A stretch of DNA of 64,000 bases from Aurantiacibacter marinus (GTDB taxonomy: Bacteria > Pseudomonadota > Alphaproteobacteria > Sphingomonadales > Sphingomonadaceae), in assembly GCF_001021555.1 (NCBI RefSeq), contig NZ_LDCP01000003.1, positions 1-64,000 on the forward strand, read 5' to 3'. Below, one piece after another: positions 9,355 through 51,724 of the stretch (position 1 is its first letter; each line of letters starts with the position of its first letter). The notes below the pieces were generated by a model, which was given only the letters and a program-made list of their open reading frames with translations, ran no database searches and had not been told where the DNA came from. The position numbers and the translations under genes are program-made.

Positions 9355-10364
9355 GCAATCTGGCGCGGCTGCGCACCGGGACGCTGCGCATACCCGTGTA
9401 GCCAGGCAGACTCGCTGTTGAAGCTCATCGTTGCGCGGTAATCGTAGGAAATATTCGCGGGCAGCAAGACATCCGTCGCGTTATCCAGCAAATAATGTTG
9501 CTGGCCGACACGGACAATCAGCACTGCATGATCGGCGTTGCGCACGAGATCGCGTGCAAGGGTCAGATACATCTGGCTCTCATCGAAGCCGAGCGCTTGC
9601 AGTATCTGGTACTTCAGGATCGCATAATCCTCGCAGTCACCGCGCCCGATAGCCAGGGTCTCTTCAGCTGTCGCCCAATAGTCGCGTGCGCCATATGTTG
9701 TATTGTCATCGGCATATTCGATGCGCTGATTGGCCCAGCGGTTCACTTGCGACAGAGTCTCTGTGCTGACGGTACCACCGGCCCCGAGCAATCTGTTTAC
9801 ACGCCCGCCGGAAAGTTCCTGTGACGAAACGCGCTGCCAGTCATCTGTAAACGGCGTCCGCCTGATCCGTACACGCGCACTGCCGAGAAAGTTATCGGCC
9901 GATGCGCCAGCAGCCACAATCGGCCTTACCACTGCAGTTCCGCTACCGGTTCGAACCGGACTGGAGGGTGTGATTGTAGGCACTTCGATTGACGCAAGAT
10001 TTAGCTGACATGCGCCCGCAATTGCCAAAGACCGGTGCAAAGCAGGGAATGCAGCGGGTGCCTGCTCAGCGGCAGCGTCCAGCCCGGACTGTTGCTGCCG
10101 GATCAGGTCCAGCGCGCTGGGCTGTCCACCAAGAATTGCGGCAGATTTGGCAGTGGCTGCAGTACTGGGCGCGCTTGCCGGTGCAGCGGGCACAAAGGCG
10201 CGCACCGGGCAGGAATAAGGACTGGCATGGGCGGAAGCCATGGGATTGGGTATGTCCAGGGCCTGGGCAGTCGAAGGCAGCAGACAGGCCGATGCGCATG
10301 CACCAAGCAGCAGCTTGGGCAGCGAAATGGCGTGGCGCAGCTTTGCTTTCCTGCTCGAGTTCAT
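9300..10364 (-). CDS. LapG-like periplasmic transglutaminase-type cysteine protease (BTLCP family)
   Basis: 354 residues with a signal peptide (hydrophobic stretch about residues 15-35). After an Ala/Pro-rich stretch of roughly 110 residues comes the bacterial transglutaminase-like cysteine protease domain. The likely triad is C244 (GRGDCEDYAI), H279 (NADHAVLIVR) and D294 (LLDNATD), with spacing close to that of Pseudomonas LapG. LapG cuts the N-terminal retention module of large adhesins and is held inactive by the c-di-GMP receptor LapD. Its position convergent to a type I exporter and adhesin fits release of that adhesin. LapD is not in this window. The unusually long region between signal peptide and protease domain is odd for the family. 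Confidence 0.85.
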   Translation of the reverse strand: MNSSRKAKLRHAISLPKLLLGACASACLLPSTAQALDIPNPMASAHASPYSCPVRAFVPAAPASAPSTAATAKSAAILGGQPSALDLIRQQQSGLDAAAEQAPAAFPALHRSLAIAGACQLNLASIEVPTITPSSPVRTGSGTAVVRPIVAAGASADNFLGSARVRIRRTPFTDDWQRVSSQELSGGRVNRLLGAGGTVSTETLSQVNRWANQRIEYADDNTTYGARDYWATAEETLAIGRGDCEDYAILKYQILQALGFDESQMYLTLARDLVRNADHAVLIVRVGQQHYLLDNATDVLLPANISYDYRATMSFNSESAWLHGYAQRPGAQPRQIAYRSDSAVSSALVTGLNR

Positions 10365-14310: not shown

Positions 14311-14360
14311 TGCAGCCGCTGTTTGTCGCTTCTGTTCCACTGGTTTAACCGGGTCTGAGG

Positions 14361-15884
14361 ATGCCGCAACCCGACCAGAAACGCTGCCGTGTGGTCGTCC
14401 TTGGAGGCGGTACGGCTGGTTGGATGACTGCCGCAGGTCTGGCAAAACTGCTGCCCGATCTGGCGAGCGTTGATCTGGTCGAAAGCGAAGATATCGGCAT
14501 CGTTGGCGTGGGGGAGGCGACCTTGCCGCACATTCGCGGCTTTGTGGAACGGCTGGGCATAGACGAAGCCGCGTTCATGAAGGCCACCCATGCTACCTAC
14601 AAGCTGGGTATCGACTTCCGCGATTTCGGCGCGATCGGGACAAGCTATATCCACCCGTTTGGCAGCTTTGGTGAAGAAGTGGCTGGCGTGGGGTTTCATC
14701 ATTGGTGGCTGGAATTGCAGCGGCAAGGTCTTGCCGCAGAATTAGGGCAATTCTCTCTTGCGGTTGCAGCCGCAAAGGCCAATCGCTTTGCTCCGCCAGC
14801 ACAGGATACCTCACTCGCATCCACTTATGGCTACGCTTACCAGTTCGATGCGACGCTGTTTGGCCCGTTCATGCGCGATTTTGGAACCGGTTTGGGCGTT
14901 ACCCGCCATGAAGGGCGTGTTACCCGGGTTGAACGTGATGCTGAAACGGGCAATGTCACAGCTCTGTTGCTGGAAGACGGGCGGCGGATCGAAGGGGATC
15001 TGTTTGTCGACTGCTCCGGTTTCCGCTCTATCCTTCTGGGACAGGAGCTGGAGGAGGACTGGGAAGACTGGACGCATTGGCTGCCGTGCGATCGTGCAGC
15101 GGCCATGCCCTGTACCCATTTCACGCCTGACATCAGGCCCTACACCACAGCAACTGCGATGCCCGCCGGCTGGCGCTGGCAAATCCCGCTGCAACATCGC
15201 ATGGGCAATGGTTATGTATTCTCCAGCGCCTTCCTCAGCGAAGCTGATGCCTGCGATGCCATTCGGAATGCTGCCGAAGGAGAACCACTGGCAGAGCCCC
15301 GCATCCTGCGCTTCCGGCCCGGTCGCAGATCACGTTCGTGGAGCCACAACGTGATAGGCGTCGGCCTTGCCAGCGGCTTTCTCGAACCGCTGGAATCGAC
15401 ATCCATATACCTGGCGCAGATGGCGATCACATATCTGATCGAACTGTTCCCGGAAGGCGGCGAGATTGACCCGCGCGACCGCGATGAATTCAACCGGCTG
15501 GTTGATATGGAATATGACCGGGTGCGTGATTTCCTGATCCTGCATTATCACGCGACCACCCGCGATGATTCCGACTTCTGGAACCATGTGCGCACAATGA
15601 CCGTGCCTGACAGTCTGTCCGAAAAGATGGAGCTTTGGCGGAAAGCTGGCCGGATTGAGAAATATTCCGACGGGTTGTTCTACGACGCGAGTTGGATTGC
15701 GGTATATCTGGGGCAGGGCGTTTTTCCGGAAACGCATGACGCGCGCGCAGCCATGGCTGACCCGGCGCGGGTCAAAGCCGCACTGGACCGGTTACAGCAG
15801 GCCATCTCAGCACATGTGGACAGCATGCCCGGTCACGTCGATTACCTTCGCGCAGAAAGCGCGCGGCTGGCAGAACAGATGTGA
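14361..15884 (+). CDS. Flavin-dependent tryptophan halogenase family protein
   Basis: 507 residues. N-terminal FAD-binding GGGTAGWM (residues 15-22), the halogenase lysine K81 (ATYKLGIDF), the signature WRWQIP (271-276) and EPLESTSIY are all present, so the catalytic set of tryptophan halogenases is intact. Known members use reduced FAD to make hypochlorous or hypobromous acid that reaches substrate through the lysine. The real substrate here is unknown; tryptophan specificity should not be assumed. It lies 50 bases after the sugar porter and its stop overlaps the next gene. Relatives of this family recur next to TonB receptors in carbohydrate loci of Caulobacter and Xanthomonas, so a link with uptake or sensing is likely. 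Confidence 0.9.
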   Translation: MPQPDQKRCRVVVLGGGTAGWMTAAGLAKLLPDLASVDLVESEDIGIVGVGEATLPHIRGFVERLGIDEAAFMKATHATYKLGIDFRDFGAIGTSYIHPFGSFGEEVAGVGFHHWWLELQRQGLAAELGQFSLAVAAAKANRFAPPAQDTSLASTYGYAYQFDATLFGPFMRDFGTGLGVTRHEGRVTRVERDAETGNVTALLLEDGRRIEGDLFVDCSGFRSILLGQELEEDWEDWTHWLPCDRAAAMPCTHFTPDIRPYTTATAMPAGWRWQIPLQHRMGNGYVFSSAFLSEADACDAIRNAAEGEPLAEPRILRFRPGRRSRSWSHNVIGVGLASGFLEPLESTSIYLAQMAITYLIELFPEGGEIDPRDRDEFNRLVDMEYDRVRDFLILHYHATTRDDSDFWNHVRTMTVPDSLSEKMELWRKAGRIEKYSDGLFYDASWIAVYLGQGVFPETHDARAAMADPARVKAALDRLQQAISAHVDSMPGHVDYLRAESARLAEQM

Positions 15885-43223: not shown

Positions 43224-43523
43224 TCCTGTATCCTCCATCGGACTGTCAATAACACCGGGCAAGGCCTTGGCAGCCGGCTTGAAGATCCCGAACACGTCCA
43301 TCTTAGCTTCGATCGCACCATAGAGATATCCCGCGACGATGAAGTCGCGCGTGAAGTGCTGACCGGTGTTAGAAAACGGGGCAAACTGACGGATCTGGTG
43401 ATCCTATGCGGCAGCCCGCTGGAGAGTATTGGCAGCACCGAAACGGTCAAAACCGTTGTGCTTGGTGGGACCACTCAAACGCGACTGAAACGTGACTGAA
43501 ACGGGCCGGGCTGGCCCCAGTGG
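43224..43523. other. 300-base region between the RiPP cluster and the epimerase gene; repeats and inverted repeat
   Basis: No gene with a good start was found. The region contains an inverted repeat AACGGTCAAAACCGTT (43442-43457; six-base arms) and 11-base tandem repeats (43477-43505). A + strand frame ends at 43499 with coding-like composition but without a ribosome site. It is a natural place to look for a missed lasso precursor gene; none with the usual leader and core rules is seen. Confidence 0.5.
43477..43505 (+). repeat. 11-base tandem direct repeat, about 2.6 copies
   Basis: AAACGCGACTG, AAACGTGACTG and a partial AAACGGG follow one another directly. Eleven-base spacing is one helical turn, as in direct-repeat binding sites of response regulators. 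It ends 18 bases from the stop of the PqqD-like gene. Confidence 0.7.
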
Positions 43524-43811
43524 TCAGCCCACCTGAACCAGGCTCCGTTCCTCGAGGTCGCCAATCAGCTTGGCGAGTTCTGTCCGGCAAGTTTGTTCGG
43601 CGACGTCATATTCGCTGCACATCGCATCAACCAGCGCGCCGAATGTTTGCTCGCCTTCTAACAGCTCCCATGCGCGCCGGCCGGTATCTTTCAGACTGTA
43701 AAATACGCCGCTGACTATATTCATCAGCACAAGCTCTTCATCGACAACAGTTTCCACGCAATCGTCTGTCTTGGTGATCTTGCTTTTGGTTTCGATATTC
43801 ACGCTAGTCAT
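43524..43811 (-). CDS. PqqD-family RiPP recognition protein (lasso peptide B1-like)
   Basis: 95 residues. The small PqqD/RRE fold is recognised from VDEELVLMNIVSGVFYSLKDTGRRAWELLEG and the helical end ALVDAMCSEYDV. Such proteins bind the leader peptide of a RiPP precursor and hand it to the modifying enzymes. In lasso systems with split B proteins the stand-alone B1 works with the B2 protease, which is encoded at 48755. It is the last gene of the - strand operon, 12 bases after the sulfotransferase. Confidence 0.9.
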   Translation of the reverse strand: MTSVNIETKSKITKTDDCVETVVDEELVLMNIVSGVFYSLKDTGRRAWELLEGEQTFGALVDAMCSEYDVAEQTCRTELAKLIGDLEERSLVQVG

Positions 43812-43823
43812 CCCCTCGGCCGT

Positions 43824-44729
43824 TTACGGCGTATAGCCCAATTCTTCCATTACATCGCGATTGGCATTGCAGAGTGCTTCTCGCTGTTCGTTGTTCAGCA
43901 TTTCCCAACCGTCACCAGCGCGGCCTGCGCGAAAGAAACGTTCCGTTTTTTCGGGTCGTTCGCGGAAGCCCGACCGGTCTTCCTTCGCACGCAGTTTCTC
44001 AAACTGGCTTTCCGCCACCGCGTGGGCAATGGCCGCATCATCGTCTTTCTCGGGCAAGCGCAGGAAGGTGGCCATGCGCTTCAGGCAGGCCGCTGTATCG
44101 GCCAGCATATCTTCGTACCGGACCGTCAGCATGGGTATGGCATCCTGCCGGTGCCAGCTGAGATAGTGTCCGCTCCATCCCAGGGTCCGCTGGCGCAGCT
44201 GATTTTTGCTGCCGCCTGCCATGATGTGATCCAGGTTGTTCATCTGTTTGACGATCTTGTCGAAATTATCATGACCCTGGTGGTTCGCGTATGAAACCGC
44301 GACGTCGAAAGGGTGACGGACAAGGTAGATTGCACCGAAGGAGCAATCGCCGGGAAAGATGGCATCGCCATTGCCATTATCATGATAACCATCATGCACT
44401 TTTACGAACAAGCGCTGCTGGGCAAGCTTGGCATTCTCACGATAGCAGGCGGGCCGCAACAGATCGATCTCGTCATCGGTCAGGTCGGAAGAGGGTAACC
44501 CCGTAATCGTATCAAAGCCGGCCCGGTTGGAAGAGATAGATCCTGACAGGGATGCGAAATGTTCATCGTCGACGCCGTCCGGGGCAATCAGGTTGGACAG
44601 CAGGATACGGGTCCATGTGTTGCCCGATTTTGGGAAGGAGGCGAGCCAGGTAATTCCATCGGGCGCAGCGTCCGCAGGCGGTGATGCCAGGTCAGCCATC
44701 AGTCTTGCCGTAGCCCTTGATCCAGTCAC
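43824..44729 (-). CDS. Sulfotransferase domain protein in the RiPP cluster
   Basis: 301 residues. The PAPS 5'-phosphosulfate-binding loop SFPKSGNTWT (residues 31-40) and the YLVRHPFDVAVSYANH strand-helix with 3'-phosphate-binding Arg and Ser are present. It should transfer sulfate from PAPS to a hydroxyl group. It overlaps the kinase gene by 38 bases and is followed by the PqqD gene, so it is cotranscribed with lasso peptide functions and is likely a tailoring enzyme; sulfation of the peptide is inference. Confidence 0.88.
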   Translation of the reverse strand: MTGSRATARLMADLASPPADAAPDGITWLASFPKSGNTWTRILLSNLIAPDGVDDEHFASLSGSISSNRAGFDTITGLPSSDLTDDEIDLLRPACYRENAKLAQQRLFVKVHDGYHDNGNGDAIFPGDCSFGAIYLVRHPFDVAVSYANHQGHDNFDKIVKQMNNLDHIMAGGSKNQLRQRTLGWSGHYLSWHRQDAIPMLTVRYEDMLADTAACLKRMATFLRLPEKDDDAAIAHAVAESQFEKLRAKEDRSGFRERPEKTERFFRAGRAGDGWEMLNNEQREALCNANRDVMEELGYTP

Positions 44730-45618
44730 GCATGGCCGCTGAAGAATTTTCGAACTGCGGTTTCAGCATGGACCGATCAAAGGTCTGCACGTGGACTGCC
44801 GCAATCAACTGGCCAAGGGCGGTGAACAACTTCTGTCGGCCCATGATGGCGCTGCCAAAACGCATGCGGTAAATGCTTTCGCGCAAATGTTTCAGGGCCT
44901 GCGCTCCGCGAACCTTTTCAATCTCGATCGGATCGCGGTCCCGCCGGACGTTTTCGTTCTTCAGGATCGTCAGGCTGACCAGATCACCGCTGCCCTTTTC
45001 TTCCGTCGTCGCGGGCAGGGCGAAGTGTTTGTTGAAATCAGGCTGATCACGGACCCGGCCGCTGCTTTCAACTCCTGTCAGTTGCAGCGCATCTTCCCAT
45101 AATTTCATATCTTTCTGCCCGGCGAAGCAACGCGCCGTTGAACCCCTGATATCAGCAGGGTCGATGATCAGGACATCGTCAGTAAAGAAGTCCAGCCCGG
45201 CAACGGAAAGACCGGCCGCCAGAGTGGATTTGCCCGCGCCCGATTGACCGGTGAAGGCATGCACCTTGCCTTCATGCATCACGGCACTGGCATGGAGCGG
45301 CAGCAGGCCCCGTTGATAGCATAATGCGCCCCAGGCAGAGCCAAGCAGGAACAGCGCGACATCGCGGTCGGACGCGCCGTTGCGTGCGTAACTTATATGT
45401 TTGCCACCTGACACATGAAAGCTTGCCCCGGCGGGCAAATGGAGGAGAAAATCTGTCGCGTTGACTTCAAATGATACGCCGCGATCCGTCACATCTTCCA
45501 ACGTCTGCGGCACCTCACCTTCGCTTATCGTCACATCCGCGTTGTCACTGCGCAGGTATGATCCAACGCGTGTTCCGAGATCGAGGTCGGCGGAGACAGT
45601 AAAAGGGGTATCCATCAT
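44692..45618 (-). CDS. HPr-kinase-like protein (lasso peptide tailoring kinase type)
   Basis: 308 residues. The P-loop is GQSGAGKST (residues 124-132), preceded by LLPLHASAVMHEGKVHAF, and followed by FFTDDVLIIDP, typical of HprK-like kinases in RiPP clusters. The paeninodin kinase of this group phosphorylates the C-terminal Ser of its lasso precursor. It overlaps the cyclase stop by four bases and the sulfotransferase by 38 bases. An HPr/PTS role is unlikely, as no PTS gene is nearby and the architecture differs from true HprK. Confidence 0.87.
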   Translation of the reverse strand: MMDTPFTVSADLDLGTRVGSYLRSDNADVTISEGEVPQTLEDVTDRGVSFEVNATDFLLHLPAGASFHVSGGKHISYARNGASDRDVALFLLGSAWGALCYQRGLLPLHASAVMHEGKVHAFTGQSGAGKSTLAAGLSVAGLDFFTDDVLIIDPADIRGSTARCFAGQKDMKLWEDALQLTGVESSGRVRDQPDFNKHFALPATTEEKGSGDLVSLTILKNENVRRDRDPIEIEKVRGAQALKHLRESIYRMRFGSAIMGRQKLFTALGQLIAAVHVQTFDRSMLKPQFENSSAAMRDWIKGYGKTDG

Positions 45619-47585
45619 TTGTTCTTGCCATCAACCCAGTCAATAAAGCGGGACATACCGAACATTCTACCGATACCAACCATAGCCACCGCGTAATCAG
45701 GATGGTCATCAGCGTCGAGAGGCGTTTTGTCGGGCCATGTTTCGAATATCTTGCGGATACGCGGTATGTCGAAACGGCGCGCCATATCGGGATCGCTGGC
45801 CGCTGCTTCGAATTCTTCGCGGTAACGGTCAATGTCCTTGGTGAAACGCGCGTGCCAGTCCGCCGATTGCCGTCCGCGTTGCCGCATATCCACGATTTCG
45901 GAAGGTAGACGGTCTTTCATCAGGCGGCGAACGAGCCAGCGATCAGTGCCGGGTGTCATGAATTGGTCTGCAGGAATGGCAAAGCAGTATTCGGTCAGGC
46001 GGCGATCGCCTAATGGATCGCGCCCCTGCACCCCGGTGAGGCCTTGCATGCCTTGCGCAGCGAGCGCCCCTTTTTCGATGTTGCCATTTGAAGTCATCCG
46101 CAACTGCACATCTCTTGTGCTCTTCAAACCGGTATAGCTATCATCCCAACCCATTTCCTCGGCTCTTTCGGATACGCGCATTTCTGCAGCATATTCGCCG
46201 TTAATGGGCGAAAAACCCTGCCAACCCGATTGATCCTGCACGTTGCGGAACCGGGCAATCGCCTTGTTGGCGAAGGCCGGAAGCAGGGGCTGTGCAACAT
46301 AGCGGTAATACCGCTTCAATATACCTTGCTGGATGTGCAGTCCGCGCAGCAGCCGGTGCATTTCGAGCCAACGGCCTTGCCGCAGAAGCTCCGGATAGAT
46401 GTAGCGGTTGCTGAGCGATATGGTGCGATTGCCGCTTGAACCGCTTAACAGAACGCTGCGCCCGGCTTCACGGACCAGCCGGGCGATTTCCATGCCCCAA
46501 TGAATGTTGTTCCATCCGTAAGGCGGCGATTCGCACATGCGGATAAATTCATCCAGCTTGTGATCAAGCGGCAATCCTTCGGACGGCACGAAAGTCACAT
46601 CAAATTGCGGATACATGGCGGCCAGCGCCTTTACTGGTCCGGATTCGTCTCCCAACCGCGTTTTGCCATAACTGCGACCATCCCAGTCCTTGCCTGGCAC
46701 ATGGGTGAAGCCCAGCAACGGATCGGTAAAGCCATGTACACCGCGCTCCAGCGCTTCCAGTGCATAAACCGATACTGTCGAGCTATCGAGACCGGCGCTG
46801 ACGGTTGTCGCTGGCGTTTTATCTGCCCGCATGGAAGTTTCGATTGCGTCGCGCATCAAGGCATCAAGAGCGTCCACATAATCGTCGTCATTTATGAAAC
46901 GCACTGGCTCCACATCGGTCGGATCATAATAACGCTGGCACTGGATAGAGCCGCGCCGGATTTCCATCCAATGGCCGATACGCAGTGCATTTACGCCGCG
47001 AAAATAAGTCTTCTCGGCCTCTTCGAAGTTCAGGATCAACGCATCGGCTATGTGCTGTTCGTCCATTTCACGCGGGATTGCGGGAAGGGCAAACAATCCC
47101 TTTGGCATCGATGCGATGGCGAACATGCCGGGGGCATCATGATAAACCAGCGGCGGCGCAGCAAGAGGCGCACGGGCGGCGAACAGGCTTTGGTTGCCAG
47201 GATCCAGGGCGATGAAGGCCCACGCACCTTCAATCCGCAGCAATGCATCTCGGCCCCATTCCCGCCATGCGGCATGGGCAAGTGCACTGTCGGCCATGGT
47301 TTTCGCCTGCGCAGGTTCAATATTGAGCGCGCGGGCGAGATCGCCGCGGTAATCGAGCCGGCCGGAAAACAGAAACCCGCCTGTCCCGGAAATGATCGGC
47401 TGGCGCTCCAATCGATCCTCGGGTGTGAAATATTCGCCCTGAGTCCAGCATGCAGCCATCGTATCGTAGCGGCGCTTTTCCTGCTTGAGCGGACCGTGAA
47501 TGCGAAGGGAAGAGGTCATACGGTCGATGTCGTCGGCGGGCACCATGGACCCGTCCCGACGGAAAATTGCACCGATTGCAGACAT
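45615..47585 (-). CDS. Asparagine-synthase-like lasso peptide macrocyclase (C protein)
   Basis: 656 residues. The N-terminal Ntn-like domain begins MSAIGAIF, without the Cys2 needed for glutaminase activity, as expected for lasso cyclases that use the precursor itself as amine donor. The synthetase domain has the ATP-binding SAGLDSS (about residue 260) and SGSSGNRTISLSNRYI. It should adenylate an Asp/Glu side chain and close the ring on the N-terminal amine. It heads the - strand operon and is divergent from the nucleotidyltransferase with 91 bases between. AGGGACCC precedes its start. Confidence 0.9.
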   Translation of the reverse strand: MSAIGAIFRRDGSMVPADDIDRMTSSLRIHGPLKQEKRRYDTMAACWTQGEYFTPEDRLERQPIISGTGGFLFSGRLDYRGDLARALNIEPAQAKTMADSALAHAAWREWGRDALLRIEGAWAFIALDPGNQSLFAARAPLAAPPLVYHDAPGMFAIASMPKGLFALPAIPREMDEQHIADALILNFEEAEKTYFRGVNALRIGHWMEIRRGSIQCQRYYDPTDVEPVRFINDDDYVDALDALMRDAIETSMRADKTPATTVSAGLDSSTVSVYALEALERGVHGFTDPLLGFTHVPGKDWDGRSYGKTRLGDESGPVKALAAMYPQFDVTFVPSEGLPLDHKLDEFIRMCESPPYGWNNIHWGMEIARLVREAGRSVLLSGSSGNRTISLSNRYIYPELLRQGRWLEMHRLLRGLHIQQGILKRYYRYVAQPLLPAFANKAIARFRNVQDQSGWQGFSPINGEYAAEMRVSERAEEMGWDDSYTGLKSTRDVQLRMTSNGNIEKGALAAQGMQGLTGVQGRDPLGDRRLTEYCFAIPADQFMTPGTDRWLVRRLMKDRLPSEIVDMRQRGRQSADWHARFTKDIDRYREEFEAAASDPDMARRFDIPRIRKIFETWPDKTPLDADDHPDYAVAMVGIGRMFGMSRFIDWVDGKNK

Positions 47586-47676
47586 GAGGGTCCCTAAAGC
47601 AGTCTGACATGCATGTTACAAGCGATTGCTGAAGGCAAATCTTGCAGGCAGGTGCCAAGCCGGATTAGGTGCACCG

Positions 47677-48738
47677 ATGCTCGTTATACCTCCTCAATTG
47701 CGCCAGCTTGCAGACGCCATTCGTCCTGCGTTGGGCTTGCCGCAGTCCGGGAATGCCGTGACGCCGGAAATAAGTCTGGCGCGCTTCGCCTCCGAACGTC
47801 ACCGGATCGGACCATTGCTTCACCGGGCGTGGAGCGGAAGGGCTGATGCGGACGGTGAAACCATTGCCTATCTGGCACAGGCGGCTGCACATAATGCGCG
47901 CTGCGAATTGCGCCAAAAGGCCGGTGCGCGGAAATTCGGGAATTTGCTGGATGCAAACGGGATTGGCTGGACCGAGTTCAAGGGCTGGCGGCTAGGGGAG
48001 CAATTGTACGGCGAATCTGCGCTGCGCCAGTCCAAGGATGTCGATCTGCTGTTGCCATCAGATCGCGTTCTTGATGCGCTGAACCTTGCTGCGAAAAGCG
48101 GGTATCGGATTGGTGGCAGAAGTGGGAATTTCGCCCTGCGCAAGGCGCGCTGGGTGCTGCGCCATCACCGCGAAATCGGCATCGTCGACCCGAAATTGCG
48201 AATAGAGATCGAAGTGCACTCGCGCCTGCTCGGTTATCCTCCGGAAGGTTGGAGCGATCCTGTCGTCACTCACGCGGCTGGTGGCGGCACGGTTTCAATC
48301 GATGATCCAGACTATGTGCTGTATCTTGTGGTTCACGGGATGCTGACCGGCTGGAAACGCCTCAAATGGCTGTGCGACATGGTGATGCTGATGCAGAAGG
48401 TTTCCCCTGCTGTGCGCGGTGCGACCATCGCCCGGTCTCGTGAACTTCATTGTGAGCCCGCGCTGGTTGCCAGCCTGCTGGCGGTTTCCGAACTGTGGGG
48501 TGATGAGATTATCTCGCCGTGGCTTGCCGAGACCCGGACTTCTCCGGGCGATGTACGGGTGCAAGGCCATCTCGCAGCCATATCGCGCCGCCTCGGCCTC
48601 GATAAACAGGCAAGCTTTGCCGAACGGGCCATGCGTCATGCGGGAATATTGCATGATACAGCCGTCTTTGGTCGCCATCCCGCACCCTTGCGGGGATTGC
48701 GCGACCGTGCGGTATTATGGTTTCTGGCAAGGCTCTGA
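47677..48738 (+). CDS. Nucleotidyltransferase-family protein of lasso clusters (PF14907 type)
   Basis: 353 residues from ATG 47677; an in-frame upstream ATG at 47626 would add 17 residues. The family is recognised from EFKGWRLGEQLYGESALRQSKDVDLLL split into KG, R and DVD elements (about residues 100-125), matching the uncharacterised nucleotidyltransferase family often found with HprK-like kinases and B2 proteases in RiPP clusters. The DVD pair should bind metal and nucleotide. Function in the pathway is not established. It starts the + strand half of the cluster. Confidence 0.8.
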   Translation: MLVIPPQLRQLADAIRPALGLPQSGNAVTPEISLARFASERHRIGPLLHRAWSGRADADGETIAYLAQAAAHNARCELRQKAGARKFGNLLDANGIGWTEFKGWRLGEQLYGESALRQSKDVDLLLPSDRVLDALNLAAKSGYRIGGRSGNFALRKARWVLRHHREIGIVDPKLRIEIEVHSRLLGYPPEGWSDPVVTHAAGGGTVSIDDPDYVLYLVVHGMLTGWKRLKWLCDMVMLMQKVSPAVRGATIARSRELHCEPALVASLLAVSELWGDEIISPWLAETRTSPGDVRVQGHLAAISRRLGLDKQASFAERAMRHAGILHDTAVFGRHPAPLRGLRDRAVLWFLARL

Positions 48739-48754
48739 TAGGCGGCTTGTGACC

Positions 48755-49222
48755 ATGACACTCACGCGATCTTGTAAAAAAGCCCTGTTGCGGCTGGAAA
48801 TATGGCTTTCGTTGGCATGGGCGCGTTTCCTGATCAGATTTGTGGCGTTTCGTCGCTGGCGCGGTTTGCTTGGGCCTATTGGCGGCGAATTGCCGCCGGA
48901 GCAGCGCCCCCGGGTATCCTCAGCACAGGCGAAGCAGGCGGCCGATATCGCGCGCATAATCAATCGGATCGCTGATCGCCCCGTATTGTTCAAGGCTGTC
49001 TGTTTGCCGCGCGCTATGGCTGGCCGCTGGGTAATGGGCCGGCGCGGGTTGCCGTCGCGCATCGTGATCGGATCGCGCCGGGGGGAACCTGAAGAAGGGT
49101 TGCTTTTCCATGCATGGTTGATGGTCGGAGACCACATCGTGACCGGCGCGGAAGAACGCGAAGGTTTCATGGCGTTTGGCCAGGATCGATCCAATCAGGA
49201 AAGCACCGGCAATGCGGCCTGA
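48755..49222 (+). CDS. Lasso peptide B2 leader protease (transglutaminase-like)
   Basis: 155 residues. ATG 48755 is preceded by AGGCGG; a GTG two codons upstream is an alternative, and the much longer open frame overlaps the previous gene. The transglutaminase-like core has C83 (KAVCLPRAMAG), H119 (LLFHAWLMVGD) and probably D126, the triad that removes the leader peptide in lasso biosynthesis. The length is that of a stand-alone B2 protein. It is 16 bases after the nucleotidyltransferase and overlaps the ABC gene start by 11 bases. Confidence 0.9.
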   Translation: MTLTRSCKKALLRLEIWLSLAWARFLIRFVAFRRWRGLLGPIGGELPPEQRPRVSSAQAKQAADIARIINRIADRPVLFKAVCLPRAMAGRWVMGRRGLPSRIVIGSRRGEPEEGLLFHAWLMVGDHIVTGAEEREGFMAFGQDRSNQESTGNAA

Positions 49223-50987
49223 TCCCGTACCGGCAACACAATCGGCCATGCGCGAATTGCTGCGTGCGATTATGACCTATGCCGGTCCACGCATGGGCCG
49301 CACACTGTTCGTGATAGCACTCGCCGCGGCTCTGGAGGGAGTGGGGCTAGTTCTGCTGTTGCCAGTTGCTGAAACCCTTTTCGCTGAAGGCAGCGAGGCG
49401 CGTTCAGGAGTGACGGGACGATTGCTGGGTTGGTTCGATTCTGTCGGCATCACGACTGTCCTGGGCCAGTTGTCTGTGATGGGAATGGGCTTTGTCCTGT
49501 TGGTTGCCCTACGCGCCTATGTGCTGATGAAACGCGATGTGATGATGGCAGCTCTGTCACAAGGCTTCGTGGACGATACCCGCCAGCAATTTTTCACGCT
49601 GCTTGCCCATACCGATTGGCCGGTGATCAAACGGTTCCGGAAGTCTCAACTGCTCAACACGATGACCACGAACATCGGCCGACTTGCGATGACGATGCAG
49701 GCGTTGTCCAAGGGTGCGATTACGATAGCGATGGGGCTTGCCTATCTGGTTGCAGCGTTTGCAGTAAGTTTTGTTCTGGGCTTTGCGCTGCTGGTTCTGG
49801 TTGGCATCGGCACGGTATTCGCAGTCGCGTGGACGCGGCGCAGCCATCGGCTCGGCACGAAACTCAACTTCGCCAATCGCGGTATCATGCATGAAACGAC
49901 CCTGTTTCTTGACGGGATGAAAGCCGCCAAGGCCGCACGCGCCGAAGGCGAACTGAGCAGACGCTTTGCCGAACGCATCGCGGAAACCCGCGCTCTCAAT
50001 GTGCAATTCGTGGCCCAGCAGGCGACCCTTCGCAACGCGGTGCAATTGATCGGCGCGGTGGCCGCGCTGGTGGTCCTTCTTGTCGGATACGGATTTGTCG
50101 GTTTGACCGGTGGCGAATTGCTGGTGATGGCGGCAATCGTGCTGCGGCTGTCACCCAGTCTCATCTCTACGTTTGGAGGCCTGCAGTCGGTTGCGCATGC
50201 GCTGCCCGCATTTGAATCAATCAGGGAAACCGAGGCGCAGCTCAAGGCAGCGCAGGAAGGGCGGAACGATAAGCCATTGTTGCCCGGCGATCCCCTGCCA
50301 CCAGAAGATGGCGAACTGGTGCTGGAAAATGCGCAGGTGGACGTCGTGAACGAGGCGGGGGAGGGCCTGACGCTGGTCGCTATGGACCATGTACGTGTCG
50401 CTCCTGGCATGCTGGTTCATGTTGGCGGGCCATCTGGCGCGGGGAAATCATCGCTGGTGGAACTGATTGCCGGTCTGCACTTGCCAGCCAGAGGGTCGGT
50501 GCAGCGCGGCGATTTCATGCTGGAGCCGGGGCAGCGCCGGGCATGGCAGACGCAGGTATCCTTCGCGCCGCAAGAACCTTTCATCTTTGATGGCACTGTG
50601 CGCGAAAACCTTCTCTGGCCCAATCTGGCAGTGGAAGATGCCTCCCTTTGGCACGCGCTGGACCAGGCGGAGGCTGCAGAGATCGTCCGCAGACTTCCTG
50701 GCGGCCTCGACGAAGAATTGCTCGATGGCGGCGCGCGTCTGTCCGGTGGGGAGCGCCAGCGGCTGTGCCTTGCACGCGCACTTGTGCGGCCCGCCAGCCT
50801 GCTGGTGCTGGACGAAGCAACTTCCGCCATGGATCCGGAACTGGAGCGGCGCATCATTGGCCGCCTGCGGCAGGACATAGGTGCGCGCATCATTCTAATG
50901 GTTTCCCATTCACTCAATGCTGTTGGTTTTGCCGATCTGCGCATTGAGGTAGCGCAGGGGCAGGCACGGATTTTGAACGGGAATTGA
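49212..50987 (+). CDS. ABC transporter, fused permease/ATPase (lasso peptide exporter D)
   Basis: 591 residues from ATG 49212, which follows AGGAAAG inside the B2 gene. A membrane domain with about six helices occupies residues 1-330. The ATPase has Walker A GGPSGAGKSS (about residue 404), signature LSGGERQR, Walker B LLVLDEATSAMD and the H-switch VSHSLNA. Exporters of this kind pump the finished lasso peptide out and give immunity. No C39 protease domain is present, consistent with a separate B2 protease. Last gene of the cluster on the + strand. Confidence 0.9.
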   Translation: MRPDPVPATQSAMRELLRAIMTYAGPRMGRTLFVIALAAALEGVGLVLLLPVAETLFAEGSEARSGVTGRLLGWFDSVGITTVLGQLSVMGMGFVLLVALRAYVLMKRDVMMAALSQGFVDDTRQQFFTLLAHTDWPVIKRFRKSQLLNTMTTNIGRLAMTMQALSKGAITIAMGLAYLVAAFAVSFVLGFALLVLVGIGTVFAVAWTRRSHRLGTKLNFANRGIMHETTLFLDGMKAAKAARAEGELSRRFAERIAETRALNVQFVAQQATLRNAVQLIGAVAALVVLLVGYGFVGLTGGELLVMAAIVLRLSPSLISTFGGLQSVAHALPAFESIRETEAQLKAAQEGRNDKPLLPGDPLPPEDGELVLENAQVDVVNEAGEGLTLVAMDHVRVAPGMLVHVGGPSGAGKSSLVELIAGLHLPARGSVQRGDFMLEPGQRRAWQTQVSFAPQEPFIFDGTVRENLLWPNLAVEDASLWHALDQAEAAEIVRRLPGGLDEELLDGGARLSGGERQRLCLARALVRPASLLVLDEATSAMDPELERRIIGRLRQDIGARIILMVSHSLNAVGFADLRIEVAQGQARILNGN

Positions 50988-51085: not shown

Positions 51086-51724
51086 TTGGCGGCTAAACAG
51101 CAGATTGTGGAAGATGGTATTTATACATCGGACCCGGAAGCCCGGGATCTGATTGCGACAAGCCCAGTCGCATCTGTGGTAAGCAATCCCCGCTTACCCG
51201 ATAATCCGCTTATTGCTTGCAATCAGGCCTTCATCGATCTGACCGGTTATTCCGAGCAGGAAATACTGGGGCGCAATTGCCGTTTTCTTTCCGGTCCCGG
51301 CACAGAGCCTTGGCTGACCGACGCAATTCGGGACGGCGTGCGAGAGCGTAAAGCCGTGCTCGTCGAAATCCTGAACTACAAGAAGAATGGCACACCATTC
51401 CGCAACGCAGTGGTGGTCGCACCTGTCTTTGACGAAGATGGAGAGCTGGAATATTTTCATGGCTCACAGGTCGAACTGGAAGATGGTGCCGAAAGCCCGA
51501 TGCTCACCCGCCGTGCGCGTGCGGCTGAAAAGATCAAGGCACTGTCCAAACGCCAGCTTGAAGTCATGACGATGGTTGCCGCTGGTCTGCGCAACAAGCA
51601 GATTGCCTATGAGCTTGGCCTGTCGGAAAAAACCATCAAGATGCATCGTGGACTGGCGATGGAAAAACTTGGCGCGAAAAGCAGTGCGGATATGATCCGC
51701 CTGGCAGTCGAGGCGGGCATCTGA
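51086..51724 (+). CDS. LOV-HTH blue-light-responsive transcription factor (EL222-like)
   Basis: 212 residues. The LOV domain has GRNCRFLSG with the flavin-adduct cysteine C65, followed by [22 protein letters not shown]. The C-terminal LuxR-type helix-turn-helix reads [37 protein letters not shown] in segments. The protein aligns along nearly its whole length with EL222 of Erythrobacter litoralis, which dimerises and binds DNA when lit. The start is uncertain: TTG 51086 is the furthest plausible codon and has no clear ribosome site; a GTG eight codons later is also possible. It lies 98 bases after the lasso exporter on the same strand. Confidence 0.93.

Follow-up and report, generated by a model that had tools for sequence, protein, structure and literature searches.

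The window, a 64,000-nucleotide stretch of Aurantiacibacter marinus DNA (contig NZ_LDCP01000003.1), carries a lasso-peptide cluster in which a kinase and a sulfotransferase accompany the lasso enzymes. Sequence comparisons suggest that this cluster probably supplies the maturation and export steps of a lasso system, acting in trans on substrates scattered over the genome. Most likely the system is ordinary in kind and new in arrangement, with a kinase-sulfotransferase lasso cluster working on scattered, unlinked precursors.

The first-pass annotation of this DNA had seen no precursor in the gaps of the cluster. Under a strict rule (Thr at leader position -2, G/A/S/C at core position 1, and D/E at core positions 7 to 9), no open reading frame (ORF) between 38001 and 56000 fitted a lasso precursor, and a relaxed leader motif searched over the whole window returned only out-of-place ORFs, none of them precursor-like. 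Across 14 further loci and that section of the window, the strict rule gave chance-looking ORFs, with the exception of the true canonical precursor of a second lasso cluster in this genome (L033, see below). The suggestion that the precursor was non-canonical or encoded elsewhere is supported on both counts. A leader motif and profiles, run beyond the window, found precursor-like genes outside it, the best on contig C4; they are on other contigs too, with Val or Ile at -2, Trp at -17, and Gly only rarely at core position 1.

The cluster consists of two divergent arms, with the minus arm transcribed in the order C, kinase, sulfotransferase, B1 and the plus arm in the order nucleotidyltransferase, B2, exporter D, regulator:

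43524-43811, minus strand: B1, PqqD-like recognition element of ribosomally synthesized and post-translationally modified peptides (Pfam PqqD, E 3.8e-16)
43824-44729, minus strand: sulfotransferase dependent on 3'-phosphoadenosine-5'-phosphosulfate (PAPS) (PF00685, E 6.9e-17)
44692-45618, minus strand: HprK-like kinase (NCBIfam HprK_rel_A, E 8.7e-9, below that model's cut-off)
45615-47585, minus strand: lasso cyclase C, asparagine-synthetase-like (Asn_synthase, E 1.9e-23, and GATase; SAGLDSS ATP motif)
47626-48738, plus strand: PF14907 nucleotidyltransferase, PsmN-like (PF14907, E 1.1e-29; start codon uncertain)
48755-49222, plus strand: B2 leader peptidase (NF033537, 63.9 bits, cut-off 33; PF13471, E 2.2e-18; ATG at 48755)
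49212-50987, plus strand: ABC exporter D (PF00005, E 6.3e-25; PF00664, E 1e-8)
51086-51724, plus strand: EL222-like LOV-HTH blue-light regulator (E 2e-88 to EL222, PDB 8a5r)

Within each arm the genes overlap by a few to ~40 bases or are separated by short gaps. The earlier description of one overlapping operon thus holds for the packing inside the arms, but not for the cluster as a whole. The Pfam and NCBIfam matches and the coordinates bore out the gene calls: B1, C, B2 and D belong to a lasso-type system, in which B1, the B2 peptidase and the Asn-synthetase-like cyclase occur together, and the sulfotransferase, the HprK-like kinase and the PF14907-type nucleotidyltransferase are present as well. 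B2 exceeded both the Pfam and the NCBIfam cut-offs. The nearest solved structure to B1 was TbiB1 (E 4.5e-10), and B1 would be expected to bind a W-x-x-P-x-[LVI] leader. The sulfotransferase motifs PKSGNTW and YLVRxPxDVAxSY-type are conserved in relatives, and in a 14-sequence alignment PKSG.TW (5'-phosphosulfate) and R.P.D...S (3'-phosphate) were invariant, consistent with PAPS dependence. Its nearest solved relatives were Teg12, Teg14 and StaL, which act on glycopeptide antibiotics. By eye, the kinase translation holds the H..GQSGAGKS...DD residues (LPLHAS, GAGKS, TDD), and the enzyme would be expected to be an HPr-kinase-like peptide kinase that phosphorylates the C-terminal Ser of the precursor. 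The combination known from paeninodin, a His-Lys-Asp-Asp kinase with a substrate ending in Ser, was thus found in the sequences, and the corresponding activity is predicted.

The pairing of kinase and sulfotransferase had been considered unusual, which the relatives do not support. In 84,980 species searched, 502 relatives of the sulfotransferase were confirmed. Among the top 80 of these 502, the kinase adjoins the sulfotransferase in 76, and B1 or C lies within the stretch in 65, a number of the stretches ending at contig ends. These 80 come from Zetaproteobacteria, Geobacteraceae, Bacteroidales, Chloroflexi, Acidobacteria, cyanobacteria and others, and since the kinase is so regularly the neighbour, the pair is, judging from gene order, an established, widespread subtype.

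The main precursor gene of the A. marinus genome (G000; G, C and L are our handles for genomes, contigs and loci) lies at C4:31390-31533 (L068:9390-9533, minus strand). It surfaced at a locus of phage-tail-collar genes and has a counterpart in G213 (L131:10980-11120). The leader carries W(-17)xxP(-14)xI(-12) and Val(-2), and the core, NGLQAGTDGNAGLSMLSAS, has Asp8, a C-terminal Ser and no Tyr. A profile (A2) was made from nine precursors, all with Asp8 and only this one from the A. marinus genome, by ungapped alignment from Trp(-17) to Asp8. It retrieved three further genes from the genome, with E-values of 1.1e-9 (C3:117458) and 2.1e-9 and 6.9e-8 (both on C1). The C3 gene shares its contig with the window and lies ~66 kb past the gene for exporter D. 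The own-genome precursor-like genes, which all end in Ser, are, besides the main one:

C3:117440 (match at C3:117458), C1:112844 and C1:1230282: further precursor-like genes (A2 E 1.1e-9 to 6.9e-8)
C1:863742, C2:611324 and C1:1230590: candidates with weaker support

Matches to A2 were counted as genes only if they could be read out as frames, and the weakest were excluded. In the local scan, matches were kept at E <0.01, plus one at 0.35 (L263:6087-6203); a match at 0.016 in L272 was dropped, the W..P motif not being visible in the part inspected. Beyond the A2 set, 26 additional genes were read out, with intact frames and 24 ATG and two GTG/TTG starts, and all 26 end in Ser. A C-terminal Ser is present in 35 of 35 precursors. 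The lasso leader pattern Y(-17)xxP(-14)xL(-12) was found with Trp for Tyr in all 35, with L/V/I at -12 in 33, W..P having served as the search anchor. Position -2 is Ile in 19, Val in nine, another residue in seven and Thr in none. The absent Thr(-2) does not exclude lasso membership, since Ile at this position has been tested experimentally as an alternative (PMC10368454). An acid falls within core positions 7 to 9 in 34 of 35 (position 8 in 26, 9 in six, 7 in two, and only 6 in one), and core position 1 is Asn, Ser or Ala in 21. A lack of Ser, Thr and Tyr acceptors, which would have spoken against a modified peptide, was not observed, as Ser and Thr are present in the precursors. No Tyr follows the Trp in 26 of 35, the main precursor among them, so that, judging from these cores, Tyr sulfation cannot be a general rule. 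Among the short ORFs with the leader motif at the 80 cross-phylum loci (129 candidates, not checked singly), 54 have a terminal Ser, compared with 8.7% of ORFs overall.

The precursors track the cluster across genomes. Our family survey comprised 298 genomes, the A. marinus genome included; congeneric genomes among them are not independent samples. Cyclase orthologues with 40-64% identity occur in six other genomes (L034, L035 (same genus), L036, L037, L038 and L039). In all six, kinase, sulfotransferase and B1 are kept next to C, with B1 beside the sulfotransferase; a loss of this synteny would have counted against the first-pass reading. The PF14907 gene stands beside the cluster in L035, L036, L037 and L039 and was not detected in L034 and L038. 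In L035, whose cluster is 63% identical, a precursor directly follows B1. The sulfotransferase search gave 30 places in 25 of the 298 genomes (12 genera), and a leader-bearing precursor-like gene was seen by eye in the stretch at 26 of them, none being found in the window, L034, L159 and L162. In clade g15/g37/g44, a gene of 43-49 residues (approximately W.KP.V..ITPV.RT, ending FY..S) lies between B1 and C in seven of nine loci; in L153 the precursor is upstream of the kinase, and none was found in L159. Unlinked precursors also occur in this clade: G222 has four, ~1.2 Mb from its cluster L159, and besides the local ones G044 has two and G015 and G291 one each.

At E<=0.5, A2 gave 9 matches in G213, 12 in G169 and 9 in G023, and none in G103, a genome of the same genus without a sulfotransferase in the survey. 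When a profile of all 35 precursors (A3) was run over the 298 genomes, matches at E<=1e-8 were confined to the seven that have an orthologous cyclase and to G228, whose cyclase is the next most similar. At E<=0.01 it gave 7 matches in G000, 9 in G213, 2 in G251, 9 in G023, 10 in G169, 1 each in G087 and G151, 5 in G249 (all local), and a single match in each of 15 further genomes; for 10 of the latter, G228 included, it lies within ~3 kb of a lasso-type cyclase (positions by eye). There was no A3 match in G014, G103, G165 and G285, genomes of the same genus in which the window-type cluster was not found. G303 and G306 had no A2 match either; as neither was searched for the cluster, they do not serve as negatives here, and G306 carries a related nucleotidyltransferase and B2 close to its collar genes. 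G299, another genome of the genus but not among the 298, gave a single strong match, adjacent to PqqD and cyclase-like genes of its own. What the DNA shows directly is the genes, the precursors, the leader motif and the co-occurrence of precursors and cluster.

The second cluster of the genome, L033 (G000:C1:576001-595000), is of the canonical lasso type and comprises B1, B2, C, a kinase, a nucleotidyltransferase and a precursor of its own:

L033:6010-6141, minus strand: canonical precursor (Tyr-17, Thr-2, Gly1, ending in Phe)

Since both clusters share one genome and common B1, B2, C and kinase types, the window cluster could be an orphan that processes the L033 precursor. This is very improbable: L033 is self-sufficient, and among its relatives (G285, G014, G251) G014 and G285 have an L033-type cluster without a window-type one. 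Their cyclases are 38% (G014) and 45% (G285) identical to that of L033, and their precursors have Thr-2 and Gly1 and do not end in Ser. As these two genomes have the canonical cluster yet no A3 match, the scattered genes appear to track the window-type cluster and not the canonical type. G014, used here as a negative, carries a distant sulfotransferase (L313 5006-5890, G014:C4; E 4e-24, below the survey threshold) ~1 kb from the B2 of its canonical cluster, whose precursor has Thr-2 and Gly1; sulfotransferases may join canonical-type clusters too.

Several points weigh against processing of scattered substrates by the window cluster. Of the seven own-genome candidates, three are weak with A2 (E 0.0057, 0.083 and 0.35, the last in the local scan). 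The last column of A2 is Ser, which somewhat favours Ser-ending genes, and A3 includes all seven own-genome precursors, so its E-values for them are circular. The script that chose start codons favoured ATG and strings resembling ribosome-binding sites. Nine of the 35 precursors lack an acid at core position 8, and only one has Gly at core position 1. Scattering is not universal: in G087 and G151, two of the seven genomes with a window-type cluster, the single precursor stands beside the cluster, and a third, G251, has two precursors. On the enzyme side, the matches of B1 to its NCBIfam lasso model and of C to the lasso cyclase model NF033535 (203 bits, E 8e-60; cut-off 525) are below the cut-offs, as is that of the kinase, leaving B2 as the only one of B1, B2 and C to pass the NCBIfam lasso cut-off.

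The scattered short genes could also be decayed copies or fixed leftovers, with only the copy in the type IV secretion operon described below, or none, being processed. The three weak copies of the own genome, the very variable cores and the single local precursors of G087 and G151 would agree with this, as would the flanking genes, which are mostly unrelated; comparison of the neighbourhoods revealed no gene family flanking the scattered precursors as a group, though a few pairs are syntenic. However, the frames are intact, with 26 of 26 ending in Ser, and positional orthologues keep the same intergenic position across species and even genera in the pairs L068/L131, L274/L276, L265/L280 and L263/L273. 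With codons aligned through the protein, third positions hold the largest share of differences (29/59 in L068/L131, 37/67 in L274/L276, 24/52 in L263/L273); in L265/L280 (27/62) the excess is weak, which again tells against processing of the scattered genes. The L274 and L276 precursors share the end ADSITRPTS, and cluster-free genomes gave no strong match. Decay is therefore unlikely.

Collar proteins themselves, modified whole, were our first working idea for the substrate, demoted to a rival once the short precursors were found. Genes with the phage-tail-collar domain (PF07484) are present in 55 of the 298 genomes: in 22 of 25 with the sulfotransferase versus 33 of 273 without it (Fisher p 1.9e-15), or, by genus, in 10 of 12 versus 23 of 84 (p 3e-4). 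They lie <=15 kb from the sulfotransferase in 11 of the 30 places. Of the best 80 cross-phylum loci, 14 have them within the surrounding stretch of at most 10 kb per side, 10 times as triplets, L183 being a weak match. Some loci were fetched for their collar genes, and these counts rest instead on the 298 genomes and the 80 loci. The collar C-terminus, ...PSRN/S, is conserved. If secreted collar proteins were the substrates, the short genes would be incidental, yet these carry the B1 leader motif and track the cluster. The collar proteins have ordinary Sec-like signal sequences by reading, and no W/YxxPxL leader was noticed in them, without a dedicated test. G251 has cluster and precursor and no collar (G089 and G289 are the other sulfotransferase genomes without collars), and 33 genomes have collars without the sulfotransferase. 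We consider whole collar proteins an improbable substrate.

In G000 and G213, collars and precursor stand together and the enzymes elsewhere. The order in both genomes is virB2, a YbjN-like gene with no Pfam match, two or three collars, precursor, virB3, virB4:

L068 3892-11998 and L131 7852-15057: VirB type IV secretion operon in which collar genes, the YbjN-like gene and the precursor separate virB2 from virB3

Precursors also adjoin collars in L038 and L039, and not in L036 and L037. A possible role in surface display or in contact is an appealing hypothesis. In L122 (G204:C1:3493001-3512900), two precursor-like ORFs (10121-10321 and 14350-14550), identical in the part inspected, neighbour a kinase/B1/C/B2 cluster without a detected sulfotransferase and three collar genes.

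We infer leader binding, step order, phosphorylation, sulfation, the lasso fold and the biological role from these comparisons. In the processing of scattered precursors that we favour, B1 would bind the W(-17)xxP(-14)x[LVI](-12) leader of the small precursors, and the kinase and sulfotransferase would modify Ser/Thr hydroxyls on the linear, leader-bearing peptide. The kinase target would most likely be the invariant C-terminal Ser, and that of the sulfotransferase a nearby Ser or Thr, or a sugar added by the nucleotidyltransferase. B2 would cut after the Val/Ile(-2)-x(-1) site, C would join core residue 1 to Asp8 (in some precursors to Glu8, or to an acid at position 9 or 7), and D would export the product. 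The EL222-like gene, which adjoins D in L034 and L035 as in the window, is a possible regulator; the EL222 operator consensus had 0 matches in the window versus 2.1 expected. More speculatively, a light-regulated cluster might convert the unlinked precursors to phospho- and sulfo-lasso peptides, the main one being made with the collars of the VirB operon and displayed on or delivered by it; we hold this fuller picture only tentatively.

The sulfotransferase may instead act on a sugar carried by phospho-Ser, placed there through the nucleotidyltransferase as in the hexose addition of pseudomycoidin, or on an unrelated small molecule, rather than on a peptide side-chain hydroxyl. The action of Teg12, Teg14 and StaL on glycopeptides would suit such a target. 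Proteins of the PF14907 type have been connected with the attachment of hexose to phospho-Ser (PMC9266682 and PMC8498205). However, the nucleotidyltransferase is not in the stretch of the kinase-sulfotransferase clusters L034, L038, L114, L117, L118, L125, L153 and L154, and it is present in 40 of the best 80 stretches, many of which end at contig ends. We regard this as a possible, if rather doubtful, course.

Prochlorosins are made by one LanM acting on many scattered precursors. The present system resembles them in having one modification system and many unlinked precursors with a common leader, tied to one cluster; processing in trans is predicted here, and the prochlorosins are lanthipeptides whereas this system is of the lasso type. 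In the consulted sections of PMC10368454, the Bradymonas bsf lasso cluster has an Ile-2 precursor, a core with Gly1 and a kinase, BsfK, that acts on Ser3, and Ile/Val(-2) precursors also occur in Sphingomonadales. The window system shares with bsf the Ile/Val(-2), the in-cluster kinase, B1/B2/C and core Asp8; it has Trp-17 where bsf has Tyr-17, and bsf differs further in Gly1, the Ser3 target and a precursor gene within the cluster. The terms 'sulfo' and 'collar' are absent from the main text of PMC10368454. HPr-type kinases with a conserved C-terminal Ser define the paeninodin/SyanA type (PadeK, ThcoK, SyanK) in the portions of PMC9266682 and PMC8498205 consulted. Kinase type (His-Lys-Asp-Asp by eye) and C-terminal Ser agree with the window system, which differs in the added sulfotransferase, the scattered precursors and Val/Ile(-2). 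Pseudomycoidin (PsmK and PsmN) likewise combines a kinase with an annotated nucleotidyltransferase in a lasso cluster, with no sulfotransferase mentioned in those portions. A putative sulfotransferase gene does lie within Firmicute lasso clusters (Zhu et al. 2016, cited in PMC8498205), for which the consulted part of PMC8498205 names no product. Our literature search found no report of scattered or unlinked lasso precursors, of a lasso link to tail-collar genes, or of a characterised doubly modified (phospho and sulfo) lasso peptide.

Lasso mining usually seeks precursors beside the enzymes, and a neighbourhood search would miss those found here. Because the substrates lie on other contigs, some 'precursor-less' lasso clusters may have been wrongly set aside, and the leader profile makes such missing substrates findable. 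The kinase-sulfotransferase pair, conserved across phyla, predicts doubly modified lasso peptides, and the repeated company of tail-collar genes together with the type IV secretion site offers a lead on peptide function.

Three further arrangements were noted. In L168 (G249:C8:1-17000), a sulfotransferase ~70% identical to that of the window is paired with another cyclase and some five local precursors like WSTPQVIDLDDRR, which suggests module swapping; ~62 kb further along the contig lies another kinase-sulfotransferase cluster, this one accompanied by a collar gene. A protein of ~1100 residues with an ArsP-like permease, FG-GAP repeats and UnbV/ASPIC recurs beside kinase-sulfotransferase clusters (L036 10579-13884, L153 3704-7024, also L037, L038 and L154-L161); the A. 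marinus genome is without it, save for a 35-residue match. Finally, a gene with TPR and 2OG-Fe(II) oxygenase domains (assigned by Pfam in L263 and by similarity in L273) is the immediate neighbour of a scattered precursor in two genera, close to typA (L263 4570-5742, L273 4638-5834), and may encode an extra tailoring enzyme.

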